Shown here one piece after another: positions 12,984 to 63,105 of a DNA stretch of 64,000 nt. How positions within the stretch are numbered: the first letter of the stretch is position 1; each line of letters begins with the position of its first letter. This DNA is from Paracoccaceae bacterium (GTDB lineage Bacteria; Pseudomonadota; Alphaproteobacteria; Rhodobacterales; Rhodobacteraceae), in contig OY282431.1 in NCBI GenBank assembly GCA_958296035.1, positions 1,119,001 through 1,183,000 of the forward strand. Direction: 5' to 3'. The position numbers were made by a program, and so were the translations under genes. Below the pieces are notes generated by a model. The model worked only from the letters and a program-made list of their open reading frames with translations, did no database searches and was not told where the DNA came from.

Positions 12984-13219
12984 AGAGGGAAAACTTTCCA
13001 GTATGAACGTCTGGCAGGTCCTTTTGGTGTTGCCGTCGGCCTGCCTGGGGTGTCCATTGCACAGATGAAGAGCAGAACAAACCCCGAATATGCCCCCTAA
13101 TGCGCCCAAACGCAACAGCCGACCGCGACACTGTAGATGCAACCCGAATTATGCGCCAGTTCAGTCGGTGGTATTCGCTCCGCACCCTGCCATGAAATGA
13201 GATTGTGGAGGATCTGTCG

Positions 13220-39832: not shown

Positions 39833-40339
39833 CTAAATGGAGACATGCCTAGCAGCTGAGGGAGTCGCGGATTGGAAATCTGCGGCTCTGATCTGCAGCA
39901 TCGTGATGGCATCTGGATTCCCAGCAAGAATGCGAAGGAAATTGTCTTTTGAGCGTGACTGGATAGAGAGACCATTTTCCCATCGATTCAGCGATGCTTC
40001 GCCTAGTCCCGTCAATTTGGCAAAGGCTGCCCGTGACAATCCACGGTTCTCTCTGATTCGCCGAATTTCTGCTGGTGAAAGAACGTCAAGATGCCCGCAA
40101 ATCTCGTTGTGCTTCAGTTCTTCGGCTTCATGATCCAAGAATTCAAACCCGCAGCTCCGGCATTGACGCACTGGAACCTGAACCCTCAGTTCTACCCTGG
40201 ACGCCCCGGACCCATAGGCGAATGCGTCAGGATGCCAAGCGCTTGTGACGTCGTCTTGTTCGCATAGGGGACAAGACAGCGTTTGCTGCGTCTTCGATGT
40301 GTTGGTTGGTTGTCGCAATTGCGAGTCTCTCGGCTCCAT
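39833..40339 (-). CDS. MqsA-like zinc-finger/HTH antitoxin-type regulator
   Basis: A 168-residue protein with two zinc Cys pairs, CPLCEQ (residues 23-28) and CRSCGFEF (about residue 60), then an XRE-type helix-turn-helix LSPAEIRRIRENRGLSRAAF near residue 87. MqsA antitoxins have this N-terminal zinc plus C-terminal HTH layout; they bind the toxin and repress the operon. It sits between a small unknown gene and the broken ATPase, all on the minus strand, so it probably autoregulates that cassette. The gene itself looks intact. Confidence 0.82.
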   Translation of the reverse strand: MEPRDSQLRQPTNTSKTQQTLSCPLCEQDDVTSAWHPDAFAYGSGASRVELRVQVPVRQCRSCGFEFLDHEAEELKHNEICGHLDVLSPAEIRRIRENRGLSRAAFAKLTGLGEASLNRWENGLSIQSRSKDNFLRILAGNPDAITMLQIRAADFQSATPSAARHVSI

Positions 40340-43460: not shown

Positions 43461-44234
43461 TTACTGAGCCGCGCTCAGACCAACGAGCACCGCCGTTTCG
43501 GATGCCTGCTGCGAGGCTCCAAGTATGTCGCCGTTCAGACCGTCGACCCGCCGCCAGGCAAGCAACAGGACAATTGCCGGCGCCGCTACGCCCAGAGTCA
43601 CAACGATCCAGGTGTCACTCCTGACAGCAATGATCACGATAGCAAGCGCTATCCCGGCGCTCGCCAAGACTGCAGTTGCGCTTGGCTTTCCAGCTTGCTT
43701 GGCGAGTTGGCTGTTTTCGGTTGAAGGTATCAAGTGCATTGCAACGACCATGATGAAGCGCGATAGCGCTCCCGCTGCGGCCATGTGTGCCATTATCTGC
43801 CAGCGGGCGACCACTTCGGCAACTGCCATCCAGCGAAACAGAACGACGATAATCACTGCCAGTACACCAAAGGTCCCGATACGGCTGTCTTGCATGATCG
43901 CGACGCGGGAATCTTTGCTGGTGCCTCCCAGTACCCCGTCTGCAGCGTCGGCCAATCCATCTTCATGCAGTCCACCGGTTAGCAAGATTGCCGTCGACAC
44001 GACGATTAGTGCGGAAACTTCTTCCGCCAGTCCGGTCTCAACCGCCAAGATGCCAGTCAGTCCCGCTGTTGCACCCACAAGTGCCCCAAGCAGCGGCCAG
44101 CACCAGACTCCTGCAGTTGCAGTCCGGATGTCCGAATGCTGCCAGGTAGGAATTGCAGTCAGTAGGCCGAGAGACGCAGCGATGTCGCGGTTGAGCCGCT
44201 TCAGCAAGTTTGAGACTTGAACTTCTCTCATCAC
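43461..44234 (-). CDS. cobS: Adenosylcobinamide-GDP ribazoletransferase
   Basis: A 257-residue inner-membrane enzyme (CobV/CobS family) joining adenosylcobinamide-GDP and alpha-ribazole (phosphate) to form adenosylcobalamin (phosphate). The metal-binding motif HEDGLADAADGVLGG is near residue 90, and at least five hydrophobic segments follow. It is divergent from cobT, whose product makes its alpha-ribazole-phosphate substrate. The two complete the lower-ligand assembly of B12. Confidence 0.93.
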   Translation of the reverse strand: MMREVQVSNLLKRLNRDIAASLGLLTAIPTWQHSDIRTATAGVWCWPLLGALVGATAGLTGILAVETGLAEEVSALIVVSTAILLTGGLHEDGLADAADGVLGGTSKDSRVAIMQDSRIGTFGVLAVIIVVLFRWMAVAEVVARWQIMAHMAAAGALSRFIMVVAMHLIPSTENSQLAKQAGKPSATAVLASAGIALAIVIIAVRSDTWIVVTLGVAAPAIVLLLAWRRVDGLNGDILGASQQASETAVLVGLSAAQ

Positions 44235-44320: not shown

Positions 44321-45346
44321 ATGGAAGTCGCAATCAAATCGCTATCGGAGTTTCGTAAAATGTGCCGCGTGTGTCCCGCTGCCGACGAGGAGGCACGCCA
44401 GCGCTCCAGGCAACGAGAACGCCAGTTGACCAAACCGGCCGGCGCTCTCGGAAGGCTGGAAGAATTGGCAAGCTGGTACGCCGGTTGGCGGGGGAGCGCA
44501 CAAACATCGATTCGACATCCCCAGATAATTGTGTTTGCCGCCAATCATGGCATTTCCAGACATCCCGTGTCGGCATATCCTGCTGCTGTAACCGAACAGA
44601 TGGTGCACAACTTTCATTCTGGTGGTGCAGCAATCAACCAGCTTGCATGGCAGGTTGGCGCCCGGCTGGATATCGTCGAACTGGACTTGAAATCTTCAAC
44701 TCGTGATTTCACAGTGGCACCGGCAATGACCGAAAAGGATCTTGTTCGAGCTCTCAACACTGGCTGGAATACCGTGTCGCTCAACACGGACCTTCTGGTA
44801 GTTGGAGAAATGGGTATTGGCAACACGAGTTCGGCTTCGGCAATTTGCCATTCCCTGTACGGTGGCGTTGCGAAGGACTGGGTCGGGCGGGGAACCGGTA
44901 TCAACCGCAAGAGACAGGCCACCAAGACCAGACTGGTAGCGCAGGCAGTGGAATTGTTCGGAACAAACCTCGATCCCTTGCAAGTCCTGCGCCATTTCGG
45001 GGGCCGGGAAATTGCAGCAATGGCGGCCGCAATAGTTCGTGCCCGGCATATCAGGTCGCCTCTCATAATCGATGGCTTCATCTGCTCTGCCGCCGCTGCG
45101 GTCATTCACCAGTTGGCCCCGGGTGTCCTGGATCATGCCATTGCCGGACACCGATCAGCTGAAAAGGCCCATGACATGCTGCTCGCAAGAATTGGCAAGA
45201 AACCCCTGCTGGACCTTTCCATGCGTCTGGGTGAAGGAACGGGCGCTGCGGTTGCGATCAACATCGTGCAAAGTGCGCTGTGCTGTCATCATGGGATGAA
45301 CACTTTCGAACAGGCCGGGGTTGCCGAGAAATCCGATCGACGCTGA
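44321..45346 (+). CDS. cobT: Nicotinate-nucleotide--dimethylbenzimidazole phosphoribosyltransferase
   Basis: A 341-residue enzyme that makes alpha-ribazole 5'-phosphate from NaMN and 5,6-dimethylbenzimidazole. Seen: FAANHGISRHPVSAYP near residue 69, GEMGIGNTSSASA near residue 166, and the catalytic Glu in RLGEGTGAAVA near residue 305. The start is ATG 44321. The 86-base divergent gap to cobS should hold both promoters. Confidence 0.95.
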   Translation: MEVAIKSLSEFRKMCRVCPAADEEARQRSRQRERQLTKPAGALGRLEELASWYAGWRGSAQTSIRHPQIIVFAANHGISRHPVSAYPAAVTEQMVHNFHSGGAAINQLAWQVGARLDIVELDLKSSTRDFTVAPAMTEKDLVRALNTGWNTVSLNTDLLVVGEMGIGNTSSASAICHSLYGGVAKDWVGRGTGINRKRQATKTRLVAQAVELFGTNLDPLQVLRHFGGREIAAMAAAIVRARHIRSPLIIDGFICSAAAAVIHQLAPGVLDHAIAGHRSAEKAHDMLLARIGKKPLLDLSMRLGEGTGAAVAINIVQSALCCHHGMNTFEQAGVAEKSDRR

Positions 45347-47275: not shown

Positions 47276-48017
47276 CGGTCCAAGAATGCTCCTTGAAGAT
47301 ACCTATTCGCTACCTGCAAAAGATATGGGCCGTTACAACTAGTGCTGTGTCACAAACTTCAAGGCACGAGAATCCAAAGCTAGTGGCCAGAGTCAGTCAT
47401 ATTGTGCCTGCTTATGCAGCATGTACCAGATTTAGGCAATGGAGTTTCGCGGCAGGTTCCCTCTGTCACCGATCCGACCCCCCTCCAAAGCAGACTAGAC
47501 GCTCTTACCTTGTGACAGGTCGCCCCAATAACTGGTCAGGAGCATTGGGTGATCCTACGGTCAACGGATTCATCCGAGCGAGTCCAACCCATCGTGAAAC
47601 AACGAATATTGGCGATTGGCACGAGACGAAGGATCGTACGCAGCGCTGATTGTTCTTCGGATTGCCGACCACATTGAGACTGTAGAGCCCGTGATCAATA
47701 TACCAAAGGCAGGAAATCACAGTAGTGGGTAATCCGCGACGCAACCATTGGAGCCGCTAACCGGGTAGCAGGCGGAGCCGAGTGGGCAGCCAACGCTGGG
47801 GACGGCCGCAGATACGCTCGATTCTGGTCGATCGGGAATTCAGGTCCTGCTGCAAGCCGGGCAAGGGTTGTGCGGGCCAGATGGATGCGTCAGTGCCAGT
47901 ATGCTTGTCAGTCAGTCCAGGCCCGCCGGGGCATGCGGTGCATATTGCGATTGAGGCCTCTTTCGCAATTGCATATGAAGGCAGTGCCCGCCTTCGGATG
48001 TGTGGACTGATAGTCGA
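47276..48017. other. Intergenic upstream of the reductive dehalogenase gene
   Basis: About 740 bases with divergent promoters expected for the antiporter and the dehalogenase. No regulatory gene, FNR/CRP-like box or riboswitch is recognised. Short frames on both strands are unconvincing. Confidence 0.4.
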
Positions 48018-51000
48018 ATGAAGCTCTTTTCTGGTCGAAGTCGACCGTGCCACCTAGGACCGTTCCCTCTGGAAAAGCTGGAAAGAGATCCGACCAGGGT
48101 GGGACCTTTCGGGGTAGAGCCAGCTGAGCAATTGAGAGCTAGCAAGCACGGCGAGCAGTCGATTGCCCACGCCATTCACCGCTTCCTGGCCATGATCGAC
48201 ACAATTCGTGACGGCGACGTAGCGCCGATCGAAGCAGAAATCCCGGCGTGTCCGGCCGAACGAGCCAAGCACCTCAAGGCGGCATGCTACTACTTTGACG
48301 CATCGATGGTCGGCATCTGCAAACTTGAAGACCATCACTTCCTGATTCGGCCCTGCCGAAATCCACAGGTCGACAATATTCGAAAGGAACTGGAGGCTGG
48401 CCAGCCGAAGACCTACTCTGCGGGTGTAGACTCGATTTATGCGGACATTTTGCAGGCGTCCCAAAAGGATTTCGGTAGTATTGAAGGTCATATCTCGGTC
48501 CTGCTGATAGCTGTCGAATACACTCGAAATCCAGGTGCAACCGAAATTGGGTGTGAATGGATACAGGACGTGCAGGCCGAACGAGCTGCATTACTTGCGG
48601 CCAATGCTGCGGTGGTAATTGCCAGCTATTTGCGCATGCTGGGATTCAAGGCCAGGAGCCACACTGCCACGACGACAGAGATTGACTTCAATGCCCTGGC
48701 GATCTCCGCCGGTTTGTGTGTAGCCGAGGAGGGTAGACCCGCAAATCCGTTTGTCGGTGACAGGCTTGGTTTTGCTGCAGTCACGTCAACAATCGAACTT
48801 CAGTGTGATTCGGTCCTGAGAGACGATGCGAGGCAACGTTTCTTGCGCCGCCACGGGTTGCAGTGGGCGTTTGGACACGGCTCGGAACGTCGTTCGAAGA
48901 CAGCGGTGCCGTTTGCCAGGCGGGAGTTCAGACGAGGTCCGCACCCCTTTGAGTCCCTGAAGCGGGTGCCTGAACCTACGACATTCATTGACGACAAGCG
49001 GGTTCCGAGGTTTCCAAAACGCGCCGATTTCTTTGCACGAGCTTTGTTCGGAGATATGGGAAAGGCTGTTCAGGAAGCGGCCAAGGGCGGCCACTACGTC
49101 ATGAAGAGTCCGATTGGCGCCTGTGCACGCCGCGCCCTGGGCGCACTACTCTTGCTTCAGTTCGGGGAGGCTCGCGGGCCGGTAGCGGCGGGCGCTGACG
49201 ATGCAAGACGAAACGGCGAGAATGTGCGCGCCGCCGCATACTTTTTGGCGACCGACGCGGTTGGCATCTCCCGGGTACCGGACTGGGCCTATTATTCCCA
49301 TGATGCAGGGGGCAATCCGATCAGGCCTTACCACAAGAACGGTGTGTCGATGCTGTTTGACCAGGGCTACGATACCATGGAAGGTGCCTCTGGCGATGAC
49401 TGGATATCGGTGGCACAGTCAATGCGTGCCTATCTTCGTTTTTCGCTGATCGGCGGTGTAATTGCCGAACAGATCCGGCGAATGGGTTACTCCGCACGCG
49501 TGCACTCGGTACTTGACAGCGAGGTGCTGCAACCACCATTGCTGCTGCTTTCTGGACTAGGCGAGGTAAGCCGGATCGGTGAGGTGATCCTCAACCCGTT
49601 TCTCGGCCCCCGGCTGAAGGCCGGCACGGTCACCACATCGATGCCCCTTGCCCATGACAAACCGATCGATTTCGGGCTTCAAAAGTTCTGCGATGCATGC
49701 AACAAGTGTGCTCGCGAATGCCCGTCGGGCGCGATAACGGCCGGGCCCAAGTTGATGTACAACGGTTACGAAATCTGGAAATCCGATGCCGAAAAGTGTG
49801 CTCGCTACAGGCTGACCAACTCTGCTGGAGGCATGTGTGGAAGGTGCATGAAGACCTGTCCGTGGAATCTCGAGGGTCTGTTCGCAGAGGCTCCGTTCAG
49901 ATGGGCAGCCTCCAACCTGCCGGCTCTTGCCAGGCCACTCGCCAAGCTTGACGACAAGATTGGCCGCGGGAGAATTAATCCGGTCAAGAAATGGTGGTGG
50001 GATATCGAACTCGATCGCACCAGCGGGCAGTATGTGGCCGCAAATGCAACACATACCCGCGAGCTGCAGACAGAGCTCAAACTGAGGTATGAAGAGCAGA
50101 CCCTAGCCGTCTATCCTGCCGACCTGATGCCGCAACCCTATCCCATCGTCCAGCCGCTGGACCGCGAGGAGGGTATCCGAAGATACCTGTCGATGTTGAC
50201 ACCTGAGGAATACAAGCAAAGGTTGCAAGAGGGCCCAGTTGACGGATTGGTACCGCAGGCACGGGAGCTTAGGGAGGTCCCGCCGACCCTGGCGGTCCAG
50301 GTCAGCAAACGCGTCCAGTATTCACAAAATGTCGCCAGTTTCGAACTCGTCGACGCCAAGGGTCGCCAACTTCCGGAATTCGAGGCTGGTGCACATGTAG
50401 ACGTGATAATTGCGCCGGAATTCCAACGACAGTTTTCGCTTGCCGGCAATCCCGCCGACCGCACGCGCTATGTGCTAGGTGTCCAGGAAGAGCGCGGTGG
50501 ACGCGGTGGTTCGCACCTCATGTTCAAGATCTTCAGAGAAGGTCGCCTGACTACCATATCACGCCCCCGGAACCATTTTCCGCTGCAGGAAGATGCGCGC
50601 AAGACTTTTTTCCTTGCCGGTGGAATTGGTGTTACGCCGCTTATTTCCATGGCGCACCGGCTGCATTCCCTCGGCCGCGAATTCGTACTGCATTACAGTG
50701 CAAGGGCGGCCCGAGGGGTCGCGTTCGAGCGCGAACTGAGACAATTCGAGTGGGCCAGGCAGGTATACTTCCATGTTTCCGATCGTGGTGGGCGGGCCAG
50801 ACTGGACGAAATCATTCCCGCCTACGAGTCCGGCTTTCACCTCTATACCTGTGGAGGAGAGCGATACATGGAGGAAGTGTATCAGACTGCGCAGGCCAGG
50901 GGATGGCCGGAGAAAGGCCTTTCGCGGGAGTTCTTTTCGGTTCCTGAGCCTCCCGAGAGAGAGAACTTTCCGTTTGTACTCGAACTGTCCCGGAGTGGAA

Positions 51001-51233
51001 GCACGGTGAATGTTCCCGCCGACCACAGTGCAGTAGAAGCACTGGCAGATGCAGGCGTCTTTATCGATACCAAGTGTTCGGATGGAATTTGTGGTGTTTG
51101 CGAAGCCAGATATCTTTCGGGAAAAATTGATCATCGGGACTATGTCCTTGCTGCCAAGGACAGGGAAGACAAGATGTTGCTTTGCTGTTCACGGGCAGCC
51201 GTTGCTGACGATCGAATTGTCATCGACCTGTAG
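48018..51233 (+). CDS. Self-sufficient B12-dependent reductive dehalogenase (RdhA fused to an NAD(P)H reductase)
   Basis: A 1071-residue enzyme of the aerobic, catabolic type (BhbA, NpRdhA), predicted to remove halogen from halogenated phenols or benzoates in the cytoplasm. No Tat signal is present, unlike respiratory RdhA. The N-terminus KLFSGRSRPCHLGPFPLEKL fits start ATG 48018. Two related segments (about residues 90-275 and 400-555) share AxYxxDAxxVGI, YLRxxGxxARxH and NPFxGxRL patterns: the pseudo-duplicated B12 module. Iron-sulfur motifs are CDACNKCARECP from C558 and CGRCMKTCPWN from C607. From about residue 750 a phthalate-dioxygenase-reductase-like part has FSLAGNP, FLAGGIGVTPL and the [2Fe-2S] ligands CSDGICGVC from C1020 plus a later Cys. 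A Rieske/diiron gene pair converges on its 3' end. Confidence 0.93.
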   Translation: MKLFSGRSRPCHLGPFPLEKLERDPTRVGPFGVEPAEQLRASKHGEQSIAHAIHRFLAMIDTIRDGDVAPIEAEIPACPAERAKHLKAACYYFDASMVGICKLEDHHFLIRPCRNPQVDNIRKELEAGQPKTYSAGVDSIYADILQASQKDFGSIEGHISVLLIAVEYTRNPGATEIGCEWIQDVQAERAALLAANAAVVIASYLRMLGFKARSHTATTTEIDFNALAISAGLCVAEEGRPANPFVGDRLGFAAVTSTIELQCDSVLRDDARQRFLRRHGLQWAFGHGSERRSKTAVPFARREFRRGPHPFESLKRVPEPTTFIDDKRVPRFPKRADFFARALFGDMGKAVQEAAKGGHYVMKSPIGACARRALGALLLLQFGEARGPVAAGADDARRNGENVRAAAYFLATDAVGISRVPDWAYYSHDAGGNPIRPYHKNGVSMLFDQGYDTMEGASGDDWISVAQSMRAYLRFSLIGGVIAEQIRRMGYSARVHSVLDSEVLQPPLLLLSGLGEVSRIGEVILNPFLGPRLKAGTVTTSMPLAHDKPIDFGLQKFCDACNKCARECPSGAITAGPKLMYNGYEIWKSDAEKCARYRLTNSAGGMCGRCMKTCPWNLEGLFAEAPFRWAASNLPALARPLAKLDDKIGRGRINPVKKWWWDIELDRTSGQYVAANATHTRELQTELKLRYEEQTLAVYPADLMPQPYPIVQPLDREEGIRRYLSMLTPEEYKQRLQEGPVDGLVPQARELREVPPTLAVQVSKRVQYSQNVASFELVDAKGRQLPEFEAGAHVDVIIAPEFQRQFSLAGNPADRTRYVLGVQEERGGRGGSHLMFKIFREGRLTTISRPRNHFPLQEDARKTFFLAGGIGVTPLISMAHRLHSLGREFVLHYSARAARGVAFERELRQFEWARQVYFHVSDRGGRARLDEIIPAYESGFHLYTCGGERYMEEVYQTAQARGWPEKGLSREFFSVPEPPERENFPFVLELSRSGSTVNVPADHSAVEALADAGVFIDTKCSDGICGVCEARYLSGKIDHRDYVLAAKDREDKMLLCCSRAAVADDRIVIDL

Positions 51234-51519: not shown

Positions 51520-51837
51520 CTACCGCAATACCTGGACCATGCCATCTGCAATTCTGCAGTCAAGCATTCTGAGCTTCCGTGTCGCGGGTGCGGCCAAAGG
51601 CTTGCCCGTTCGCACATCGAAGAGTCCCTGATGTAGCGGGCACTCAATGGCAAAGCCGTCAAAGTATCCATAGCAAAGGTTGGCCCCTTGATGCGTACAT
51701 CTGGCGAGACTGACAAAAACACCCTCCTCGGTATCGTAAACCGCGAGGTCCAGGCGGCCTAGCCTTGCTGGTGTGACGTCTCCCGATACCAGGTCGCCCA
51801 ATGGCAGGATGTTGTGCCATTTCCGTTCCCTCTTCAT
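51520..51837 (-). CDS. Rieske-type [2Fe-2S] ferredoxin
   Basis: A 105-residue soluble Rieske protein. Cluster ligands are CTHQ (residues 47-49 region) and CPLHQG (about residue 66), the C-x-H...C-x2-H pattern. It would pass electrons to an oxygenase. ATG 51837 overlaps the stop of the upstream desaturase-like gene (ATGA), so that membrane enzyme is the natural partner. Confidence 0.9.
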   Translation of the reverse strand: MKRERKWHNILPLGDLVSGDVTPARLGRLDLAVYDTEEGVFVSLARCTHQGANLCYGYFDGFAIECPLHQGLFDVRTGKPLAAPATRKLRMLDCRIADGMVQVLR

Positions 51838-52799
51838 GCCTCGGAACCGGTAGCGTCAGCGCGTGGCGTTCGACCGACAATCTGGGAAATAATGTCGATA
51901 TGGGCACCGAGGTATCCGCGCTTCTCGACATGCACGAAACCTGTCAGACGGCGGTGCAAATCGGGCAGGGCATGGAAGGGCACTGACGATGCATAGTGAT
52001 GTTCGGCATGATAGTTCATGTTCCAGCACAACAGTCGCATCGGCCTGGTCACGAGGTTGGTTCGGGTGTTTTCCTTCATATCCGTAACATTCGGCCGGCC
52101 AACATGCTCGGTCATGCGTATTGCTCGCATGACAGGTTCGCCCAGGAACATGGGAATCCACCACAGCCACAAGGCGCCCCACCAGTCCAGAGCAACCGAT
52201 CCGGCAATGATGAGCAGGTAGAGCGCAAAGTAGGTTCTCGCCTCAACTATGACGGCTCTGCGCTCCTCGACCGGAATGAATTCTTCTTCTGATTTCGAGA
52301 TCCTTCCGAATACGTGGCGAATAAGTGCCTCGAACTGCGCATACCAATACGGAATCGAGCTCAAATACCACAAATACCGGCTCAGTGAGATTGGCAGTTC
52401 AATCAATTCCGGGTCGTAACCCTTCTGCTGCGTGAAAGTATGATGGTTGCAATGCTCATAGCGAAAGTACTTGTTGGGGATGACAAGCAGAAATCCGCAG
52501 TAGTTGCCCACGACTTCGTTTAGCCACCGGCTGCGAAACGGTGTGTAGTGGCAGCATTCGTGCTGGAGTGAGAAGTGGTGGACAACAATTATTCCGTGGG
52601 CGAACATTGCCGGAATCAGCCACAAGGTATCGAACGAGACAATGACAAGAGTTCCGGTAATCGCAAGCACTACGATAAACTTGAGCAGGTGCAGGAAACC
52701 GGCAAAATTTGAACGGCGCATCAATTGTCGCAATTCAGCTCTTGTTATCACGCCTTCCTTCATCGCCTGGCTAATTGGCGTCAGTACCTCGTCATTCAT
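51834..52799 (-). CDS. Membrane diiron oxygenase, fatty acid desaturase family
   Basis: A 321-residue membrane protein with the three histidine boxes of the FA-desaturase superfamily: HHFSLQHECCH (about residue 84), HCNHHTFTQQ (about 125) and NYHAEHHYASSVP (about 268), with hydrophobic segments between. These bind a diiron centre that hydroxylates or desaturates a substrate. The substrate is not readable; fatty acid, carotenoid-like or aromatic compounds are possible. The start is ATG 52799. It is coupled to the downstream Rieske ferredoxin and divergent from the M29-like gene at 53185. Confidence 0.88.
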   Translation of the reverse strand: MNDEVLTPISQAMKEGVITRAELRQLMRRSNFAGFLHLLKFIVVLAITGTLVIVSFDTLWLIPAMFAHGIIVVHHFSLQHECCHYTPFRSRWLNEVVGNYCGFLLVIPNKYFRYEHCNHHTFTQQKGYDPELIELPISLSRYLWYLSSIPYWYAQFEALIRHVFGRISKSEEEFIPVEERRAVIVEARTYFALYLLIIAGSVALDWWGALWLWWIPMFLGEPVMRAIRMTEHVGRPNVTDMKENTRTNLVTRPMRLLCWNMNYHAEHHYASSVPFHALPDLHRRLTGFVHVEKRGYLGAHIDIISQIVGRTPRADATGSEA

Positions 52800-53184
52800 C
52801 ACTAACTCGATGCAAAATTGAAATCCCAAGCTGCACTGCTACACCCGAAATCGTTCGATTTCCAGACCAGAAATCACGCCTACAGGTTCAGAGGTAGTGT
52901 TCAATCCTGCCACATGCAATCTTGAGACGCCATACCGGCGCAAGACAGTCATGATTGGCGCGATCTTCGACAGCCCGCCACTCGGTCTGGAGCCGCGCAA
53001 TACCCAACGCTGAGCGTTGCCGACAAACGGAGGCAAGCGGTCACAAACTCTTTCCCGAACCTGCCAATGGTTCTGCGTTCGCAGTGATTAGCTACGCTTA
53101 TGGGAGTCTTGCAGACAAATGCAAGTACTTTTGGCACGGTTTCGGGTAAATGGTAGGTTAGATGGAGTATACAAAGGATGGAAA
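52800..53184. other. Divergent intergenic region with an orphan short frame
   Basis: About 385 bases. The minus-strand frame 52839-53036 reads SKIAPIMTVLRRYGVSRLHV and SEPVGVISGLEIERF, which has a protein-like composition, but I cannot assign it. It could be a remnant of a longer gene. The divergent promoters should also lie here. Confidence 0.35.
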
Positions 53185-54264
53185 ATGTCTGAAGAAGTTG
53201 AGCTGGCGGCGGGAGCCAGCAATCTCCTTGAGCACTGCGCGGGCGTAACAGAAGGTGATCGCATCCTGCTCATCCATGAGGAAGAGGTACACGGATACAG
53301 TGAACTCGAAGCAGTTCAGGTCACCGCCGATTGTTGCCGCCAGAGGGGCGCCATCCCACAATTACACTATGAACCGTTTCGGCCCGAGTCACCGTCCATA
53401 ACCCGGGAATTGCAGCTTAGGATGGAACAGTCGGATGTGGTGATCTACTTTTCGCGGCTGGCCGACCAGCTCAGGTTTCAGCAGTTTCCTGAATGCATCA
53501 AGACGATTGTCAACTATGCTGCCAACAAGCAGCGCCTGGGAGCCCCTTTTGGTACTGCCGACTATCGTGCCTTTCAAACGATTCGCCGCTCGATAGACAG
53601 TATGATCGCCGCTAGCGAGCATATCGTCGTGACCTGTCCTCGAGGATCCAGGTTTTCCGGTTCAGGCGATCCAGAAATCGGCAAGGTTGGGGAAGTATTT
53701 ATCAGAAGATTTCCCATGCTTGTATTCGCGCCGGTTTCGGCACAACGCTTTAGCGGGCGTGTTGCCATGCCCCGAATCCTGGTTGGTACAAGCACCGATT
53801 TTTATAAACCCTATGGTCTCCAGACACGAGAGGTGCTGTTTGCCGACTTTGAAGCGGGACGGTTGGTGCGCTTCGATGGTCTTGAGGAAGACGTGGCTCG
53901 CGCCAATGCACATTATGACTACGTGGCGAGCAGATTTGATATCGATCGCAACCGGGTGTTTTCGTGGCATGCCGGGGTTCACCCGGCAAATGAGTACCGC
54001 CAGTCCGCACACGAAGACTACGAATTGTGGTGTAATAGCGCCTTCGGGAATCCAAGGATTCTGCATTTCCACACTTGTGGCAATATCTCGCCGGGGCAAA
54101 TTTCATGGAATGTGCTGGATCCGACAATTCGTATTGATGAGGTCACTGTCTGGATGGAAGGCAAGCTCTTGCTGGAAAACCTTGACTGTGGCTCCGAGGT
54201 CGCCCAGGCATATCCCGCCGTGGCTCGTCTGTTTGCCAATCCTTTGCAACAGTGTGGGCTGTAG
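53185..54264 (+). CDS. M29-like (aminopeptidase T-related) protein of unknown function
   Basis: A 359-residue protein distantly resembling peptidase family M29 proteins: an N-terminal ASNLLEHCAGVTEGDRILLI, a central GRVAMPRILVGTSTDFYKPYG (shown around residues 190-210) and a C-terminal SWHAGVHPANEY and RILHFHTCGNISPG, which hold candidate metal-binding His, Glu and Cys. Classic M29 residues cannot be confirmed by eye. The start is ATG 53185 with AAAGGATGG just before. It is divergent from the desaturase/Rieske pair, suggesting they serve the same pathway. Confidence 0.6.
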   Translation: MSEEVELAAGASNLLEHCAGVTEGDRILLIHEEEVHGYSELEAVQVTADCCRQRGAIPQLHYEPFRPESPSITRELQLRMEQSDVVIYFSRLADQLRFQQFPECIKTIVNYAANKQRLGAPFGTADYRAFQTIRRSIDSMIAASEHIVVTCPRGSRFSGSGDPEIGKVGEVFIRRFPMLVFAPVSAQRFSGRVAMPRILVGTSTDFYKPYGLQTREVLFADFEAGRLVRFDGLEEDVARANAHYDYVASRFDIDRNRVFSWHAGVHPANEYRQSAHEDYELWCNSAFGNPRILHFHTCGNISPGQISWNVLDPTIRIDEVTVWMEGKLLLENLDCGSEVAQAYPAVARLFANPLQQCGL

Positions 54265-54841: not shown

Positions 54842-55882
54842 TCAGGGGCGCGTGTCCGCCGCCCGCTGTTCTGCATCAATCAACCGTTGCAGGGAGCGAC
54901 GGAATATCTTGGCTCCGCCGTCCAGCCCCAGGTCGATATTGGGCGACTGCTTATGCTTCATGCCCTTGTGAACCTCGACCAGAATGTCTCTGTCTTCCTT
55001 GAAAGCCATCAATGCGCCTTCGTTCATTTTCTCGGAAACAGCTGTGTCGTCCGGGTCGGTATTGCGATGCTGGAACCAGTAATAGCGGGTCGTGTCTTCA
55101 TCTATTGGTGTCATGAAATTATACGAGATATTCACGTAGGTCAGTTTCGTTTCCGGCTTGCCATAGCCACCGGTGCCAGTCGGCGTATAGACGGATTTGT
55201 TCAACCCTATGGCCGGAAAACACATCTCGTAGTGTTGAAGACGATCGCACAATCCTTCGAACTTGACCAGATCAGCGTAGTAGGGGGAGGGGGCCTTTCC
55301 ATGGATCCATCTCGAAACCACGACGCCCCTGTCTGTCTTTTTGACTTTCAATGGTTCGTCGTCGGTCCCTGCACCAGCGAATGAGGAAACATGCACCCAG
55401 GCGACGTGGCTGGGGTCAAGGAGATTGTCTGCGACCCACAGGTAGTTGCAGTCGACGTCGAGAACGCCTCCATCGGTATAGCCCCAATCCGGGTTTTCAA
55501 AATTATCGATTGGGAAAACGGCTTCAGGATCCGCCAACTCTGCATCTCCCATCCAGATCCACAGCATACGATACCTGTCGACAACAGGATAAGACTTGAC
55601 CCGGGCACGTCGCGGGATCGCCTTGGGTTGGGTTGGCGCCGCAACGCATCTGCCGCCGCAGTCAAATGTCAAACCGTGATAGCCGCATTCGACAGTGTCG
55701 TTCTTCAGCCTGCCTTTGGAAAGCGGTAGTTTGCGATGCGGACAGGCATCCTCAAGCGCCACAGGTTGACCATCGGTGCGGCGAAAGATGACAATGTCTT
55801 TTTCTAGAAACTTGACGGCACTGAGCGAGCGGGAAAAGTCCTTGCTCCATCCGGCAACATACCAGGCGTTGTGCAGGTACAT
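54842..55882 (-). CDS. VanA-like Rieske non-heme iron oxygenase (O-/N-demethylase type)
   Basis: A 346-residue oxygenase alpha subunit. The Rieske cluster is bound by CPHRKLPLSKG (about residue 47) and CGYHGLTFD (about residue 66). The mononuclear iron site is in the DNLLDPSHVAWVH segment (about residue 152), where two His and the bridging Asp lie. Layout and N-terminus (MYLHNAWYVAGWS) are those of vanillate O-demethylase VanA and related demethylating monooxygenases. Substrate unknown. No VanB-type reductase gene is adjacent, so electrons must come from elsewhere. Confidence 0.88.
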   Translation of the reverse strand: MYLHNAWYVAGWSKDFSRSLSAVKFLEKDIVIFRRTDGQPVALEDACPHRKLPLSKGRLKNDTVECGYHGLTFDCGGRCVAAPTQPKAIPRRARVKSYPVVDRYRMLWIWMGDAELADPEAVFPIDNFENPDWGYTDGGVLDVDCNYLWVADNLLDPSHVAWVHVSSFAGAGTDDEPLKVKKTDRGVVVSRWIHGKAPSPYYADLVKFEGLCDRLQHYEMCFPAIGLNKSVYTPTGTGGYGKPETKLTYVNISYNFMTPIDEDTTRYYWFQHRNTDPDDTAVSEKMNEGALMAFKEDRDILVEVHKGMKHKQSPNIDLGLDGGAKIFRRSLQRLIDAEQRAADTRP

Positions 55883-56300: not shown

Positions 56301-57251
56301 CTACACTGATGCATTCGACGCAGGTCTAACATGGGGAGGTAGTTGGGCCTGTTGCTTCGATTGATCAACTAGCCATTCTCTGAGGACCATGATTCGATGC
56401 TGATCAAGGTTGTATCTGGGGCACACGCACCAGTATGAGTATTCCGACCGGACTGCTTTTCGAAACGGTCGCACGAGCCTGCCATCAACCAATGCATCAA
56501 TGACCAGGGGCTGTCGACCAAGTGCAACACCGAATCCCTGGATGGCCGCTTGCACGGCCATGTTGGCCTGGGAGTAGCGGAGTTCTCGCCGACCTGCCGG
56601 AAGGTGGACTCCAACCCTTCGAGCCCAGTAATGCCAGTTCGGCTGGTTTCCTTCCTGCACAGTAATATCGTCCACAAGGAAGGTGATATTCGAGGCACCC
56701 TGACCGTCCATCAGGCATTTGACGGTATCAAGAAGCAAGGGTGAACATACAGGAAAAACCGTCTCACTCATTAGTCGGTCCACCTGCATGCCCACAAATC
56801 TTCCTAGCCCGTAGCGGATCGCCAGGTCCTCAATACCCGACAGTTGTCCATCAGCCGGAATAGCCGTGGAAATCGAAACCGGAATGTCTGGATAGCGCTG
56901 ATCGAAATCGATCAGTCGCGGGAACAGCCAGTTTACGGCAAAACCGGGTGGACAGGATATGACAACTGACGAATCAGTGAATTCTCTTGAACGAATCTGG
57001 TCGCATACGGATGAGACCTGCCCCAGTCCTCCTGCTACGGCATCTGCCAACTGACGTCCTACGCTCGTGGGTATGGTTGCGCTGTGCCCCCTGATGAGTA
57101 GTTTCTGATTTGTCCATTCTTCAAGATTGCGGACATGCTGAGAAACCGCGCTCTGTGACATGCCGAGTTCGTTGGCTGCGCGGCCGAACTTTCGCAGCCG
57201 GGCAACTGCTTCAAAGGCGCGCAACGACGTATAGGGCAGGTTCTTGAGCAT
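56301..57251 (-). CDS. LysR-family transcriptional regulator (GcvA-like)
   Basis: A 316-residue regulator. The N-terminal winged HTH SLRAFEAVARLRKFGRAANE (from residue 9) includes AANELGMSQSAVSQHVRNLE, and the rest is a periplasmic-binding-protein-like effector domain beginning near residue 90. The N-terminal PYTSLRAFEAVAR pattern is of the GcvA/AmpR subgroup. It is divergent from the AhpD-like gene, a common regulator-target layout, and could also control the Rieske oxygenase downstream of it. Confidence 0.9.
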   Translation of the reverse strand: MLKNLPYTSLRAFEAVARLRKFGRAANELGMSQSAVSQHVRNLEEWTNQKLLIRGHSATIPTSVGRQLADAVAGGLGQVSSVCDQIRSREFTDSSVVISCPPGFAVNWLFPRLIDFDQRYPDIPVSISTAIPADGQLSGIEDLAIRYGLGRFVGMQVDRLMSETVFPVCSPLLLDTVKCLMDGQGASNITFLVDDITVQEGNQPNWHYWARRVGVHLPAGRRELRYSQANMAVQAAIQGFGVALGRQPLVIDALVDGRLVRPFRKAVRSEYSYWCVCPRYNLDQHRIMVLREWLVDQSKQQAQLPPHVRPASNASV

Positions 57252-57392
57252 ATCGGGCAGACTAGGACAGATGCGGCGTCCACATCAACCCAATATGTAC
57301 ACTTCTGCTGTTGCAGGTTGGTTGCCAATTCTGCATCGTGTGCAAGACATCGGGTCACTGCTGTTTTGGTCAATGAGTGGAGGAAGAAGGAC

Positions 57393-57986
57393 TTGGCTTC
57401 CTGGATAAAGATGATTGCCGACGAGAATGCGGACGGTCCCCTTGCGGCTGCACTTGAACAGGCAAGAACCCCGCACGGCACAGTCGACAATGTGATGAGA
57501 GTGCACTCATTGCGACCGGAAACAATGTGCGGACATATCGCCCTTTACCGTTCCATACTTCACAATAAGGCGACCTGCGTACCGAAGGCATTTCTGGAGA
57601 CTGTCGGAAGCTTTGTGTCGCGGCTTAACGCTTGCCCATACTCCTACAGCAATCACTGGAAAAACGCCCGACACCTTATCAACGACCCTGTCCTTTCAGC
57701 ACGCATCGAGGCATCGTTCGATCATCAGGAGTTCAGGCGAGTCTTCTCGGAAAAAGAAGCGGTAATGCTTGAATATGCGAGAAAGCTGACAGCCGAGCCC
57801 GGCGACATGGAGCAGGATGATGTGGCAAGGTTGCAAGCTCTTGGTTGGAAGGACGTTGAAATCCTGGAGATCAATCAGGTGATTTGTTACTTTAACTATG
57901 CCAACCGGCTTCTAAACGGTCTGGGGGTGACAACAGAGGGTGATGTGATAGGCTTTTACCCTGGCGATAGGGAAGCTCCAGCTTGA
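57393..57986 (+). CDS. AhpD-like/carboxymuconolactone decarboxylase-family protein
   Basis: A 197-residue protein of the peroxidase-related AhpD-like family: SWIKMIADENADGPLAAALE at the start, NVMRVHSLRPETMCGHIALY near residue 34 (shown in part) and a C-terminal VICYFNYANRLLNGLGV. Active members have a C-x2-C pair; here the site reads ACPYSYSNHWKN, with Ser in place of the second Cys, so peroxidase activity is doubtful. The start is TTG 57393 behind GGAGG; ATG 57411 is an alternative. Divergent from the LysR gene. Confidence 0.8.
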   Translation: MASWIKMIADENADGPLAAALEQARTPHGTVDNVMRVHSLRPETMCGHIALYRSILHNKATCVPKAFLETVGSFVSRLNACPYSYSNHWKNARHLINDPVLSARIEASFDHQEFRRVFSEKEAVMLEYARKLTAEPGDMEQDDVARLQALGWKDVEILEINQVICYFNYANRLLNGLGVTTEGDVIGFYPGDREAPA

Positions 57987-58145: not shown

Positions 58146-59399
58146 ATGAAGACTCGGTACTCCTTCTGGTCTCTTGCAAGGAATGCCCTGACAGGACATC
58201 GCAACTGGCAACCTGCGTGGCGCCAGCATGCGCTGAAGCCCAGATACGACATGGTGATCGTGGGTGCGGGAGGGCACGGTCTGGCGACCGCCTATTACCT
58301 GGCATCTCGTTTTGGAATGAAACGGATAGCGGTCCTTGAAAGAGGCTGGCTTGGCGGCGGAAATGTTGCACGAAATACGGTGACAATTCGTTCCAATTAT
58401 CTTCGTGACGAGAGCATCCCGTTCTTCGTGCGCTCGGTAAAGATGTATGAAGGTTTGTCGCGTGAGCTGAACTTCAACCTCATGCATTCGCGTCGAACAA
58501 TGATCGACGTAGTCCAGACCTATCCGAAGTTGCGTGACCTGACACGCAGAATGAAGATCATGGACATGTACGGGTCCCACTACGATAGGATTTCGGTCGC
58601 CGAAGTCAGGAAACGAATTCCCGCCCTGACCGGTGGCCAGCCTGGCTCCCGGCTACCCGTGTTGGCTGGCATGGTGCACCGCGAGGCGGCTGTCAACAGA
58701 CATGATGCAGTGGCTTGGGCATATGCCAGGGCAGCGGACGCGCTCGGGGTCGAAATTCACCAGAACACCGAAGTCACGGGTTTGACAGTGGATAAAGGCA
58801 CTGGGATATGCGGAGTGGCAACCAGCAGGGGGCCGGTCAGTGCCGACTCGGTGGCGTTGGCAGTCTCCGGGCATACCTTTCAGTTGGCCAGGTCTGCCGG
58901 ACTGAAGTTGCCTCTCCAGACATTCAACCTAACGGCGTTCGTTTCGGAACCTGTGAAGCCGATTGTTGATGTCGTGGTGAACTGCCCTGATTTGGGCGTG
59001 TACTTTTCGCAGACGGCCAAGGGGGAGCTTGTTATCGGGGGGATGCCGGATGCCGGATTGTCCTACAGACGAGACATAAAGCAGCATGTTTTCGAGAATA
59101 CCGTGTCAGGCTTGCTGGAACTGTTCCCGACCTTTCGGCGACTCAAAATGCTGCGGCAATGGGCCGGTCATCTCGATATCACGCCGGATGGCTCGCCGAT
59201 TATCGACCGCACTCGTATCCCCGGCCTCTATGTAACGGCTGGCTGGTGGGGTGGATACAAGGCAATCCCGGCAGGCGGCCTATGCTTTGCGAAGCTGATT
59301 GCAACCGGCGAGCCACATACGCTTGGGGCACCCTTTAGCTTGAGTCGTTTCGACAGTTTCAACTACATCATGGAAACCGGAACGACGACTGTCGTCTAG
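58146..59399 (+). CDS. soxB: Sarcosine oxidase subunit beta
   Basis: A 417-residue flavoprotein, the catalytic subunit of heterotetrameric sarcosine oxidase. It oxidises sarcosine to glycine; the methyl group goes to tetrahydrofolate as methylene-THF, and H2O2 is made. The FAD-binding VIVGAGGHGLATAYYLA begins near residue 38, and covalent FMN is bound by a conserved His in this family. The C-terminus GLYVTAGWWGGYKAIPAGG (about residue 359) is typical. First gene of soxBDAG. Confidence 0.96.
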   Translation: MKTRYSFWSLARNALTGHRNWQPAWRQHALKPRYDMVIVGAGGHGLATAYYLASRFGMKRIAVLERGWLGGGNVARNTVTIRSNYLRDESIPFFVRSVKMYEGLSRELNFNLMHSRRTMIDVVQTYPKLRDLTRRMKIMDMYGSHYDRISVAEVRKRIPALTGGQPGSRLPVLAGMVHREAAVNRHDAVAWAYARAADALGVEIHQNTEVTGLTVDKGTGICGVATSRGPVSADSVALAVSGHTFQLARSAGLKLPLQTFNLTAFVSEPVKPIVDVVVNCPDLGVYFSQTAKGELVIGGMPDAGLSYRRDIKQHVFENTVSGLLELFPTFRRLKMLRQWAGHLDITPDGSPIIDRTRIPGLYVTAGWWGGYKAIPAGGLCFAKLIATGEPHTLGAPFSLSRFDSFNYIMETGTTTVV

Positions 59400-59407
59400 G
59401 AGGCACC

Positions 59408-59671
59408 TTGCTGGTTATCAACTGTCCCTTTTGTGGTCCGCGAGATGAGCGTGAGTTCGACTACGGCGGGCTTGCCAAGGCCCCCCGCAGCAAGGTTGAA
59501 AGGGTGGCGAGTAATTCCGAATGGACCGCCTACCTTCTACACCCTGGCGATCAAGGCAGGATTGCTGATGAATACTGGTGGCATGCTCGAGGCTGCGGTG
59601 AGTGGGTCAGGGTAAGGCGCGATACAACGACGCACAGGATTGAGCAGTCGGAAGTGGAGTCGGATCGTTGA
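59408..59671 (+). CDS. soxD: Sarcosine oxidase subunit delta
   Basis: An 87-residue zinc-binding subunit. Ligands are CPFC (residues 6-9) and a later His and Cys in WWHARGCGEW (about residue 57). The start is TTG 59408 with AGGAGG directly upstream. The stop overlaps the soxA TTG (TTGA). Confidence 0.94.
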   Translation: MLVINCPFCGPRDEREFDYGGLAKAPRSKVERVASNSEWTAYLLHPGDQGRIADEYWWHARGCGEWVRVRRDTTTHRIEQSEVESDR

Positions 59672-62601
59672 GCGTCCATCGCTTGAATCAAGGTGGATGC
59701 ATTGATCGCAAGCAGCCGTTGCAGTTTGATTTCGACGGGCGAAGCTATAGCGGCTTTCAGGGTGATACGCTTGCATCGGCCCTTCTGGGAGCAGGTGTGC
59801 GGCTGACGGCACGCAGTTTCAAGTACCATCGGCCGCGCGGAATTGTGTCCAGCGGAGTCGAGGAGCCATCGTCTTACGTTCATCTTCGCAAAGGCAGGGA
59901 ATCAGGAAGCGAACCTGTCACTCGTGTCGAACTTGTTGACGGTCTTTCGGCCCGCTCTGTCAGGGGATGGCCATCGGCGTCATTCGATGTTGCGGCAGCA
60001 GTTCAGTTTCTCTCCCCGCTGATACCGGCTTCATTCTACTATAAGACATTCATGTGGCCAGGCTGGAGACTGTACGAACCGGCCATCAGAAACATGGCCG
60101 GGCTTGCGCCGGCACCAATTGATGTGGCCACGGACGACTGCTTTGAAGCCCGCGATCGGCACTGTGATGTTCTTGTAATCGGGGGAGGGCCAGCGGGTCT
60201 GTCGGCCGCGCTTGTGGCAGCTCGGGCCGGACTGGATGTGCTTGTCGTTGACCAGGAGCCGATGGTCGGTGGCGCACTGCTAGCTCGGAACCTGCACATT
60301 GAATCTGCTCCAGCCAGCCACTGGCTGGACACGGTGGTGGCAGAATTGACCGGTTTCAGCCGTGTTGAAGTGTTAACAGGAACCGTGGCGTGGGCTCACC
60401 GAGAGCATAATCTGGTCATGCTGGCCGAGAACAAGCGGAGCCCAGGTGTCAGTATGCAGCGTATATGGCGGGTTCGGGCACAGCAGGTTGTTCTCGCCAC
60501 CGGAGCCAATGAGCGCCTCCTGGTGTTTGCCAACAATGATCGCCCCGGAATCATGCTGGCCTCGGCCATTCAGGCGTATGCAATTCGGTATGCGGTTCGA
60601 GCCGGCAGACGCGCCGTTCTGTTCACCACCAACGACAGTGTCTACCAGTGTGCTCGAGATCTGCATGACGTCGGAATTGAGACTGCCGCCATCATTGATG
60701 TTCGAGACACTGTGCCGCCAGTGGTTCAGGCTCTGGTGCCCGGCGTAAAGGTAATGGCCGCACACGAGGTCTACAATACTAATGGTGGCCGGGAAATTTC
60801 CGGGGTTCTCGTTAGACCTGTAAAGGGTGGCCCTACGACGCGTATTGGATGCGATCTTCTGGGATTGTCCGGAGGATGGAATCCTGCCATCCAGCTTTGG
60901 TCGCAGGCCAGGCTTCCAACTCGCTATTGCAGGCGGCTGGCGACGCTAGTGCCTGAAGGTACATCATCCAAAGTTGCAGTTGCCGGTGCCTGCAACGGCA
61001 GGATGGCTTTACGAGAGGTGATTTCCGACGGCTTGCAGGCCGGTCTTGAAGCCGCACGAAGATGTGGACAGGAGCCCGACGCGATGTCTTGTCCGGAGTG
61101 CGAAAGCGACAGCTATACTATCGAACCCTATTGGCACAGCGGCAATGACTTGCGAGCCGACAAGGCATTTGTCGACCTGTTGCATGACGTAACCCTTCGT
61201 GACATTCATCTGGCAATCTCCGAGGGATTTGCCGAGATCGAGCACGTAAAGCGATATACGACTGCCGGCATGGCGCTGGATCAGGGAAGAACCGGAAACC
61301 TCAATGTTGCGGGTGCTGTTGCCATGCGACGTGACATGGAAGTCGCCGCAATCGGAACCACAACTTTTCGACCACCGACGGTTCCCGTCAGGTTTGGCGG
61401 CTTGGGACAGTTTGACGGGCTTAAAATTCTGCCCTACCGGACTACGCCGGTAACCCCTTGGCATCGGAACCACAACGCTGTGATGTATGAAGCTGGCGCA
61501 CGTTGGCGCCGGCCGGGTTACTACCCGCAAGCCGGGGAATCGATGCAGGGGTGCATCAATCGCGAGGCCAGGGCCGTGCGCAACGGACTAGGCATATACG
61601 ATGGGGCACCACTCGGAACGTTCGAAATTCAGGGACGGGACGCGTCTCGGTTCCTTGACCTTGTTTATACAAATGTCTTTTCCACACTCCACACGGGGCA
61701 AGGGCGCTATGGCCTGATGCTCACGGATGACGGGCTGATCCTGGACGATGGCGTCAGCTTTTGCCTGGGCAGGAACCGCTTTCTGATGTCCACATCTACG
61801 GCCAATGCCGGACTGGTCAGGCGTCACATGAAACGCCTGCTTGCGGTTGATTACCCTGAACTTGAGGTCCGTATTACCGACGTGACCAGTGTGTGGATGA
61901 ACGCAACCCTTTGCGGACCGCTGGCCAGATCGGCACTGGAGCGAATAGGCACGGACATTGACATCTCGCCGGAGGCTTTTCCGTTCATGGGCATTCGCCA
62001 CGGGATCGTGGCCGGCTTCGAGGCACGCGTGGCGCGAGTCAGCTTCACCGGCGAACTGTCATTTGAAATCAACGTGCGAGCGCGTCATTTGGCAGAGTTG
62101 TGGGAGCACATATTTGAGGTTTGTCGCGAATTCGACATCACTCCCATTGGATCCGAAACCAGCCATGTTCTGCGCGTGGAAAAGGGATTCCTGTCACTTG
62201 GCCATGAAGTGGATGGAACCGTCGATGCATTTGACCTTGGAATGGGCTGGGCAATGGCTTCAGGAAAGCCGGACTTCATTGGCAAGCGTGCTGTTTCAAT
62301 CAGAAGGTCAGGGGGGCGGTGCCGACGGGAGCTTGTCGGATTGTGGACCGAAGACCCGGCCAGGGTGGACATTGAGGGTGCTCCGCTGGTCGAGTCCCGT
62401 GACAGTAAGCGATCTGTGGGGCATGTCACCGCATCGGTGTGGAGTGTGGTGCAGGAACGTGCGATAGCACTCGCCTTGCTAGAAAATGGCAGGCAGCGTC
62501 ATGACGAGGTCATATTGATCCGCGATGGATCGGGCCTGCTAAAGTCCAGGGTTACCGCCCCCTGCTTTCACGACCCTAAAGGCAAGCTTCTACGGAGTTG
62601 A
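59668..62601 (+). CDS. soxA: Sarcosine oxidase subunit alpha
   Basis: A 977-residue subunit of normal size. An N-terminal 2Fe-2S-like fold region (GDTLASALLGAGVR, RSFKYHRPRG near residue 50) is followed by a NAD-binding Rossmann domain (GGGPAGLSAALVAARAG, residues 172-188) and a C-terminal GcvT-like folate domain from about residue 600, ending with FIGKRA and CFHDPKGKLLR. It binds NAD+ and folate. The start is TTG 59668, overlapping soxD; no in-frame ATG lies nearby. Confidence 0.96.
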   Translation: MSVHRLNQGGCIDRKQPLQFDFDGRSYSGFQGDTLASALLGAGVRLTARSFKYHRPRGIVSSGVEEPSSYVHLRKGRESGSEPVTRVELVDGLSARSVRGWPSASFDVAAAVQFLSPLIPASFYYKTFMWPGWRLYEPAIRNMAGLAPAPIDVATDDCFEARDRHCDVLVIGGGPAGLSAALVAARAGLDVLVVDQEPMVGGALLARNLHIESAPASHWLDTVVAELTGFSRVEVLTGTVAWAHREHNLVMLAENKRSPGVSMQRIWRVRAQQVVLATGANERLLVFANNDRPGIMLASAIQAYAIRYAVRAGRRAVLFTTNDSVYQCARDLHDVGIETAAIIDVRDTVPPVVQALVPGVKVMAAHEVYNTNGGREISGVLVRPVKGGPTTRIGCDLLGLSGGWNPAIQLWSQARLPTRYCRRLATLVPEGTSSKVAVAGACNGRMALREVISDGLQAGLEAARRCGQEPDAMSCPECESDSYTIEPYWHSGNDLRADKAFVDLLHDVTLRDIHLAISEGFAEIEHVKRYTTAGMALDQGRTGNLNVAGAVAMRRDMEVAAIGTTTFRPPTVPVRFGGLGQFDGLKILPYRTTPVTPWHRNHNAVMYEAGARWRRPGYYPQAGESMQGCINREARAVRNGLGIYDGAPLGTFEIQGRDASRFLDLVYTNVFSTLHTGQGRYGLMLTDDGLILDDGVSFCLGRNRFLMSTSTANAGLVRRHMKRLLAVDYPELEVRITDVTSVWMNATLCGPLARSALERIGTDIDISPEAFPFMGIRHGIVAGFEARVARVSFTGELSFEINVRARHLAELWEHIFEVCREFDITPIGSETSHVLRVEKGFLSLGHEVDGTVDAFDLGMGWAMASGKPDFIGKRAVSIRRSGGRCRRELVGLWTEDPARVDIEGAPLVESRDSKRSVGHVTASVWSVVQERAIALALLENGRQRHDEVILIRDGSGLLKSRVTAPCFHDPKGKLLRS

Positions 62602-62607
62602 ACACCG

Positions 62608-63105
62608 ATGGCCACAACCGCCAGCTCCGGCTACATGAAGGCAGTTCTTGACTGCAAGTGCTCGGCTGCAGAGTTTGATCGCTGGATACGTCCGGCATTT
62701 CCCGACACAGCACCTTCAAGCGGTGGAATCACAATTGTGGGTACGACGGAGATCATCCATGTCGGCCGCGAGCATTGGCTTGTTTGTGCGCCCCTGTCCG
62801 AAGAGGCAAACCTCATTGGCCGATTCCGTAAGCTGGAGTTGCCGGATTCGGTTTCACTTGTCGAGGTTTCGGACTCGCTGAGATTTTTCAGTTTCGGCGG
62901 GTCCGACCTGTATGAAAGGCTCTCGCGGATGACCTCTCTGGACGTACGCAACATGCACATGCCTGGCGCCACGTTGACGGAGGCGTTCGGTCTCAAGGTG
63001 CTCCTTGTGCGCAGACTCGACCAGTTCGAATTGGGATTCGATTCAAGCTATGCCCGCATGATTGAGGAGGTTCTGAAGAATTCTGGGAGCAGTTTCGACT
63101 GGTAA
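62608..63105 (+). CDS. soxG: Sarcosine oxidase subunit gamma
   Basis: A 165-residue gamma subunit, a short GcvT-like protein that helps hold the complex together. It begins six bases after soxA and closes the operon. Features include LVEVSDSLRFFSFGGSDLYE near residue 85 and the C-terminal SYARMIEEVLKN. No folD, purU or glyA follows in the window. Confidence 0.9.
   Translation: MATTASSGYMKAVLDCKCSAAEFDRWIRPAFPDTAPSSGGITIVGTTEIIHVGREHWLVCAPLSEEANLIGRFRKLELPDSVSLVEVSDSLRFFSFGGSDLYERLSRMTSLDVRNMHMPGATLTEAFGLKVLLVRRLDQFELGFDSSYARMIEEVLKNSGSSFDW

Follow-up and report, generated by a model that had tools for sequence, protein, structure and literature searches.

The rdhA gene and the domain organization of its product

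The locus analyzed here centers on rdhA, a gene on the forward strand (48018..51233) of a 64,000-nucleotide stretch of a Paracoccaceae bacterium genome (GenBank assembly GCA_958296035.1, contig OY282431.1, positions 1,119,001 to 1,183,000; hereafter, the window), which is predicted from the open reading frame (ORF), NCBIfam, phmmer and an alignment to encode a fused (self-sufficient) catabolic reductive dehalogenase of 1071 amino acids. The ORF spans 48000-51233 on the plus strand; translation from the ATG at 48018 gives the 1071 residues, and an upstream GTG start adds 6 residues, so that positions of structure matches, which are counted from the GTG, are shifted by +6 relative to the ATG numbering used otherwise.

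The product scores 199.1 bits against the NCBIfam model TIGR02486 (RDH; cut-off 160.35) and is matched by Fer4 and Fer2 in Pfam. Its top solved relatives are the NpRdhA structures 6zxu and 4ras (E ~1e-154, stretches 6-111 and 163-743), and the C-terminal part, 764-1076, matches phthalate dioxygenase reductase (2pia, 1.5e-59). Three modules, all on the plus strand, can be delineated: an N-terminal duplicated B12-type module (residues ~1-300, 48018..48917), recognized by phmmer and via alignment to NpRdhA over residues ~1-740; a catalytic module with B12 and two [4Fe-4S] clusters (~301-740, 48918..50237; NCBIfam, phmmer and alignment); and a phthalate-dioxygenase-reductase-like module with flavin, NAD(P) and [2Fe-2S] sites (754-1071, 50277..51230; Pfam, NCBIfam and phmmer). 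The first of these is presumed to be vestigial by analogy with NpRdhA, for which this is described in PMC10463259.

The [4Fe-4S] cysteines (C558, C561, C564, C568 and C594, C607, C610, C614) and the plant-type [2Fe-2S] cysteines (C1020, C1025, C1028, C1056) are invariant in all 87 aligned sequences, including that from the window. The residues Y472 (codon at 49431), K534 (49617) and R598 (49809) are the equivalents of Y426, K488 and R552 of NpRdhA, such that the catalytic Tyr, Lys and Arg are all retained, a point that the sequence-only reading had put up for checking. Its description of the protein as a fused, self-sufficient RdhA of 1071 residues lacking a Tat signal agrees with the domain matches; the absence of a twin-arginine motif from the N-terminus, MKLFSGRSRPCHLGPF, was judged by eye. 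The sequence comparisons show the protein's fold, the order of its domains and its catalytic residues, and the assignment to an already known kind of enzyme is well supported: the catalytic module with a duplicated B12-type domain, the two [4Fe-4S] motifs, the phthalate-dioxygenase-reductase-like reductase in the same chain, and the Tyr, Lys/Arg and substrate-binding Arg are all present. A search of the same genome for RdhA homologs at E<=1e-30 gave one match.

Distribution and phylogeny of rdhA

Full-length rdhA homologs were detected in 16 of 37 genomes of the same family, our genome included (within the genus, 7 of 9; over the whole set of 61 genomes searched, 16), and the marine JtRdhA has already been characterized; because of both, the gene can be called neither rare nor a novelty among marine bacteria, and the sequence-only reading's emphasis on how few such enzymes are known was overstated. 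In a sample of 385 genomes spread evenly over the class, 9 (ours included) carry a full-length rdhA and one more has a catalytic-only match, under thresholds of E<=1e-150 for rdhA and E<=1e-100 for the DdmC-like oxygenase discussed below; unfused rdhA-like genes in two further genomes (G037 and G043) fall below this stricter cut-off.

A scan of genome contigs yielded at least 524 rdhA relatives among 595 candidate stretches, of which the best 80 were kept; among these 80, the nearest named relatives of the window protein come from Rhodobacteraceae metagenome-assembled genomes (MAGs). In a quick gene tree of 87 rows, with support values from the Shimodaira-Hasegawa-like approximate likelihood ratio test (SH-aLRT) only, the window protein belongs to a nine-row clade (SH-aLRT 97) together with L002, L016-L018, L020, L023, L024 and L079, separate from a 43-row clade that holds the Roseobacteraceae-labeled rows. 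The roseobacter-like origin proposed from sequence thus holds as far as the nearest named relatives are Rhodobacteraceae MAGs but not for the position in the gene tree. The tree places the protein among sponge-type MAGs, one of which, L020, is Aplysina aerophoba bin36 (accession MPMP; PMC5649159, Table 2). The labels COS4_bin_11, RHO1_bin_2 and SB0678_bin_1 suggest, by their wording, a sponge origin for other MAGs; Coscinoderma and Rhopaloeides are among the sponges sampled in PMC8163846. Putative bhbA homologs are reported as widespread in the Roseobacter clade (PMC13101508). Recent acquisition of rdhA was considered and rejected: its GC content (0.569) and GC3 (0.61) lie inside the range of the neighboring genes, and the flank is kept in the genus. 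A separate plasmid can be dismissed as well, the genome being a single 3.64 Mb contig.

Genes surrounding rdhA

Downstream of rdhA, on the minus strand, lie genes for a Rieske [2Fe-2S] ferredoxin (51520..51837; PF00355, 51 bits), which is kept near rdhA in relatives, and a membrane di-iron oxygenase of the FA_desaturase type (51834..52829; PF00487, 133 bits), which is co-distributed with the DdmC-like oxygenase; the TTG start of the latter is uncertain, homologs aligning from about residue 11. They are followed by a plus-strand gene (53119..54264) for a 381-residue protein with the fold of NicX (2,5-dihydroxypyridine dioxygenase) and M29 aminopeptidases. No Pfam or NCBIfam match worth naming was obtained for this protein, and sequence searches of the PDB with it and with the desaturase-like protein gave nothing useful; NicX emerged from a fold search. 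Residues H262, H294, H296 and D312 are invariant in this protein; the Fe(II) ligands of NicX are H265, H318 and D320.

The minus-strand gene at 54842..55882 encodes a Rieske oxygenase of the DdmC/VanA type (PF00355, 79 bits; VanA_C PF19112, 142 bits), a probable O-demethylase as predicted from its relatives: the best solved one is the dicamba O-demethylase DdmC (E 2.5e-39), followed by 7qwt. Beyond it are a LysR-family regulator (56301..57251, minus strand; Pfam), for which no homolog was found in L016, L017 or L024, and, on the plus strand, a peroxidase-related AhpD-like protein (57318..57986; TIGR01926, 104.5 bits, cut-off 81.8) that is 39.7% identical to a counterpart adjoining rdhA in Aminobacter L014. 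Four further plus-strand genes resemble those of heterotetrameric amine oxidases: a SoxB-like flavoprotein (58146..59399; TIGR01373, 491 bits, short of its cut-off, 529), a SoxD-like subunit (59408..59671; PF04267, 84 bits, over cut-off), a SoxA-like subunit (59668..62601; TIGR01372, 1070 bits, short of its cut-off, 1164) and, weakly, a SoxG-like subunit (62608..63105; TIGR01375, 20.9 bits, and PF04268, 16.4 bits, both below cut-off). The soxB- and soxA-like genes score under the cut-offs curated for sarcosine oxidase, which leaves room for a different N-methyl substrate.

On the other side, the conserved flank includes cobS (cobalamin-5-phosphate synthase; 43461..44234, minus strand; PF02654, 150 bits) and a gene for a cobT-type phosphoribosyltransferase (DBI_PRT) of the lower cobamide loop (44321..45346, plus strand; PF02277, 376 bits). 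A choline-sulfatase gene (41534-43081, minus strand; TIGR03417, 689 bits, over cut-off) adjoins cobS and keeps this position in L017, L024, L097 and L099; a choline-sulfatase/betaine cluster also lies within ~10 kb of rdhA on a Jannaschia plasmid (L015). Elsewhere, the genome contains hmgA, pcaH and a pobA-like gene, for putative downstream steps, and cobN, for B12. More distant parts of the window encode a helix-turn-helix protein of the MqsA antitoxin family (39833-40339, minus strand; PF15731, above the gathering score) and probable histidine utilization genes (8583-14590), namely urocanase, an aromatic amino acid lyase that is likely HutH, and a HutF-like amidohydrolase.

Conservation of the gene island and co-occurrence with rdhA

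In three relatives (L016, L017 and L024), the gene order is cobS, cobT, kefB and rdhA, followed on the opposite strand, after ~130 bp, by the oxygenase, Rieske and desaturase genes, and then by a divergent gene of the 381-residue type, an AhpD-like gene and sox genes; in L024, a stop interrupts the 381-residue-type gene at matched coordinates. The same gene set is found in L099 (G006), where a gap of 2.3 kb follows rdhA, and in G003 the contig end adjoins rdhA, with a Rieske fragment. The oxygenase gene is present in 8 of the 9 genus genomes.

An island unrelated to dehalogenation stands at even chances: the DdmC-like, desaturase-like, NicX-fold and Sox genes would then degrade some other methylated sponge compound (for instance, an N-methyl amine or a betaine), with rdhA as a mere neighbor, and both would be common because they suit life in sponges. 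The choline-sulfatase and sarcosine-oxidase-like genes close by fit this explanation, as does the location of the oxygenase and rdhA on different contigs in five genomes (L018, L019, L020, L021 and L023, the last being G022); in L021 and in L019, a member of Rhizobiaceae with one stop in the oxygenase frame, the oxygenase lies ~5 kb from a desaturase-like gene, away from rdhA. Against it, seven genomes (our own, G001, G002, G006, G007, G008 and that of L079, which has one stop in the oxygenase frame) have the oxygenase no more than 7 kb from rdhA, and nine of the ten genomes from the genus/family and class samples with an oxygenase at >=65% identity carry a full-length rdhA, the sole exception, G005, being 79% complete. 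Among 20 genomes chosen for the presence of rdhA, several of which recur in the genus/family sample (G061=G001, G062=G007, G068=G008), the oxygenase is found at >=67% identity in 8, with one in-frame stop each in two of these copies (G064 and G080), and is missing at E<=1e-40 in 6, which again favors an unrelated island; the substrate of DdmC, a halogenated methoxy aromatic, argues the other way.

In the class sample of 385, the oxygenase was found in 6 genomes, rdhA in 10, and both in three, including our own. When our genome is excluded, rdhA is present in two of the five genomes that carry the DdmC-like gene versus 9 of 384 genomes overall (P 0.005; among these 9, G149 has the catalytic part only) and in two of the nine that carry the NicX-fold gene (P 0.016), both tests ignoring relatedness and shared habitat. 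In G032, a genome of the same family without a fused rdhA, contigs 65 and 25 hold a shorter reductive dehalogenase-like ORF (36% identical, 396 aa frame) and a DdmC-like oxygenase (58% identical); the two functions may have been paired independently in this case.

Among the neighbors of rdhA that recur over 85 loci and the window are a family of 152 residues and a TRAP-permease-sized family, at 10 loci each, which probably represent a MarR-type regulator and a permease of the TRAP type, as identified via the annotated L014 only. In L014 (6546-9967), an Aminobacter plasmid, rdhA lies beside MarR regulator and TRAP transporter genes. Such neighbors hint that other lineages have a unit for the uptake of aromatic acids.

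Proposed mechanism and pathway

The rdhA product is, with high probability, a self-sufficient catabolic reductive dehalogenase that works in the cytosol and tolerates oxygen, with ortho-bromo- and ortho-iodophenols as the likeliest substrates; by analogy, NAD(P)H-dependent ortho-halophenol dehalogenation in air is the most likely activity. Under a mechanism and halogen preference carried over from NpRdhA and JtRdhA, a hydride from NAD(P)H would pass to the C-terminal flavin, from which electrons would travel through the [2Fe-2S] cluster and the two [4Fe-4S] clusters to base-off cob(II)alamin; the reduced cobalamin would abstract the halogen ortho to the phenol, with the Y472/K534 pair supplying a proton and R598 assisting in holding the substrate.

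Brominated natural products abound in sponges, and the conserved island with its likely demethylating enzymes suggests that some sponge-associated bacteria break down methylated members of this group; the earlier idea that brominated phenolics of sponges serve as substrates thus gains support from the sponge-type MAG clade together with the island. The catabolic RdhAs characterized so far act, according to PMC10463259, on ortho-halogenated phenols, so that a methylated phenol should shed its methyl group first, a step that the DdmC-like oxygenase could perform. That, in this genus, O-demethylation by this oxygenase releases the phenol on which RdhA then acts is a possibility that we regard as rather unlikely. 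Slightly more doubtful still is a complete route, in which the island of sponge-associated Rhodobacteraceae would serve aerobic catabolism of O-/N-methylated bromophenols, for example 3,5-dibromo-4-methoxyphenethylammonium alkaloids, through O-demethylation by the DdmC-like enzyme, ortho-debromination by RdhA, removal of N-methyl or amine groups by SoxBDAG, and ring opening by the NicX-fold protein, if that is a dioxygenase. Compounds of this pattern, 2-(3,5-dibromo-4-methoxyphenyl)-N,N,N-trimethylethan-1-aminium and its 4-hydroxy form, are described from Verongula rigida (PMC10971822).

Two observations count against the interpretation offered here. PF13486 gave no match to the rdhA product at E<=1; it was silent in the entire genome, and control genomes were equally silent in the same search. 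Furthermore, rdhA adjoins other genes in the five annotated plasmid records examined, and hence the island alone does not name the RdhA substrate. A preference for chlorinated phenols or phenolic acids, with a pollutant-degrading role, is improbable: NpRdhA accepts chlorinated compounds, but the fused JtRdhA is described as inactive on those tested, which bound as inhibitors (both PMC10463259), and the closest relatives of the window protein look sponge-associated. An epoxyqueuosine reductase (QueG)-like or other B12/FeS reductase without dehalogenation, to which membership of QueG in the same class III superfamily might point, can be set aside almost entirely, given 27.4 bits for TIGR00276 (cut-off 200) versus 199.1 bits for RDH, the NpRdhA fold and active site, and the fused reductase.

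Should the pathway of demethylation followed by debromination be correct, it would constitute an oxic branch of the marine bromine cycle inside the animal; it also yields the testable prediction that a marine fused RdhA serves O-methylated, ortho-brominated compounds in nature. A limited literature search found no account of demethylase-coupled debromination, and, as far as the searches showed, this would be the first proposed pathway to couple O-demethylation to B12-dependent debromination in air; within the same limits, the island setting around rdhA is what is new. The sponge debrominators of PMC12203066 are anaerobes, a different route via chlorocatechol-dioxygenase is described for Lamellodysidea MAGs (PMC7313196), and transport and degradation of halogenated compounds are reported from the A. 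aerophoba metaproteome (PMC6081418).

Comparison with known systems

In the alignment of the island oxygenase with DdmC (3gb4), the Rieske and iron motifs correspond, and N230 of DdmC aligns with an N, whereas H251 and W285, presumably contacts of the carboxylate of dicamba, have no like residues in this weakly aligned region, which makes dicamba-type acids look unlikely as substrates.

Among the dehalogenases, NpRdhA of Nitratireductor pacificus (4ras, 6zxu, 6zy1) naturally lacks the reductase domain, according to PMC10463259. Because of this, the label of BhbA/NpRdhA architecture that had been attached to the window protein mixes two subfamilies: it is apt for BhbA, which is fused, as is JtRdhA, but not for NpRdhA. 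The catabolic, Tat-less Ros_A3X954 of Roseobacter sp. MED193, a marine 2,6-dibromophenol debrominase, has its [4Fe-4S] motifs at 283-294 (CDICTKCADACP) and 337-345 (PMC13101508), positions that imply a protein shorter than the window RdhA, and apparently belongs to another subfamily. BhbA of Comamonas sp. 7D-2 (plasmid pBHB, L011), the outgroup in the 87-row tree, shares the fused architecture, length and active-site residues (49.3% identity over 100% of the query) and differs in being plasmid-borne: insertion sequences and genes for protocatechuate 4,5-dioxygenase lie next to it, and the record lists no demethylase island. The JtRdhA protein (WP_104007082) of Jhaorihella thermophila, compared by its published description, is fused and Tat-less, like the window protein, comes from a marine bacterium and retains the equivalents of Y426, K488 and R552; this enzyme, from a coastal hot spring, removes Br and I from phenols in air in an NADPH-dependent manner and is inhibited by chlorinated analogs (PMC10463259).
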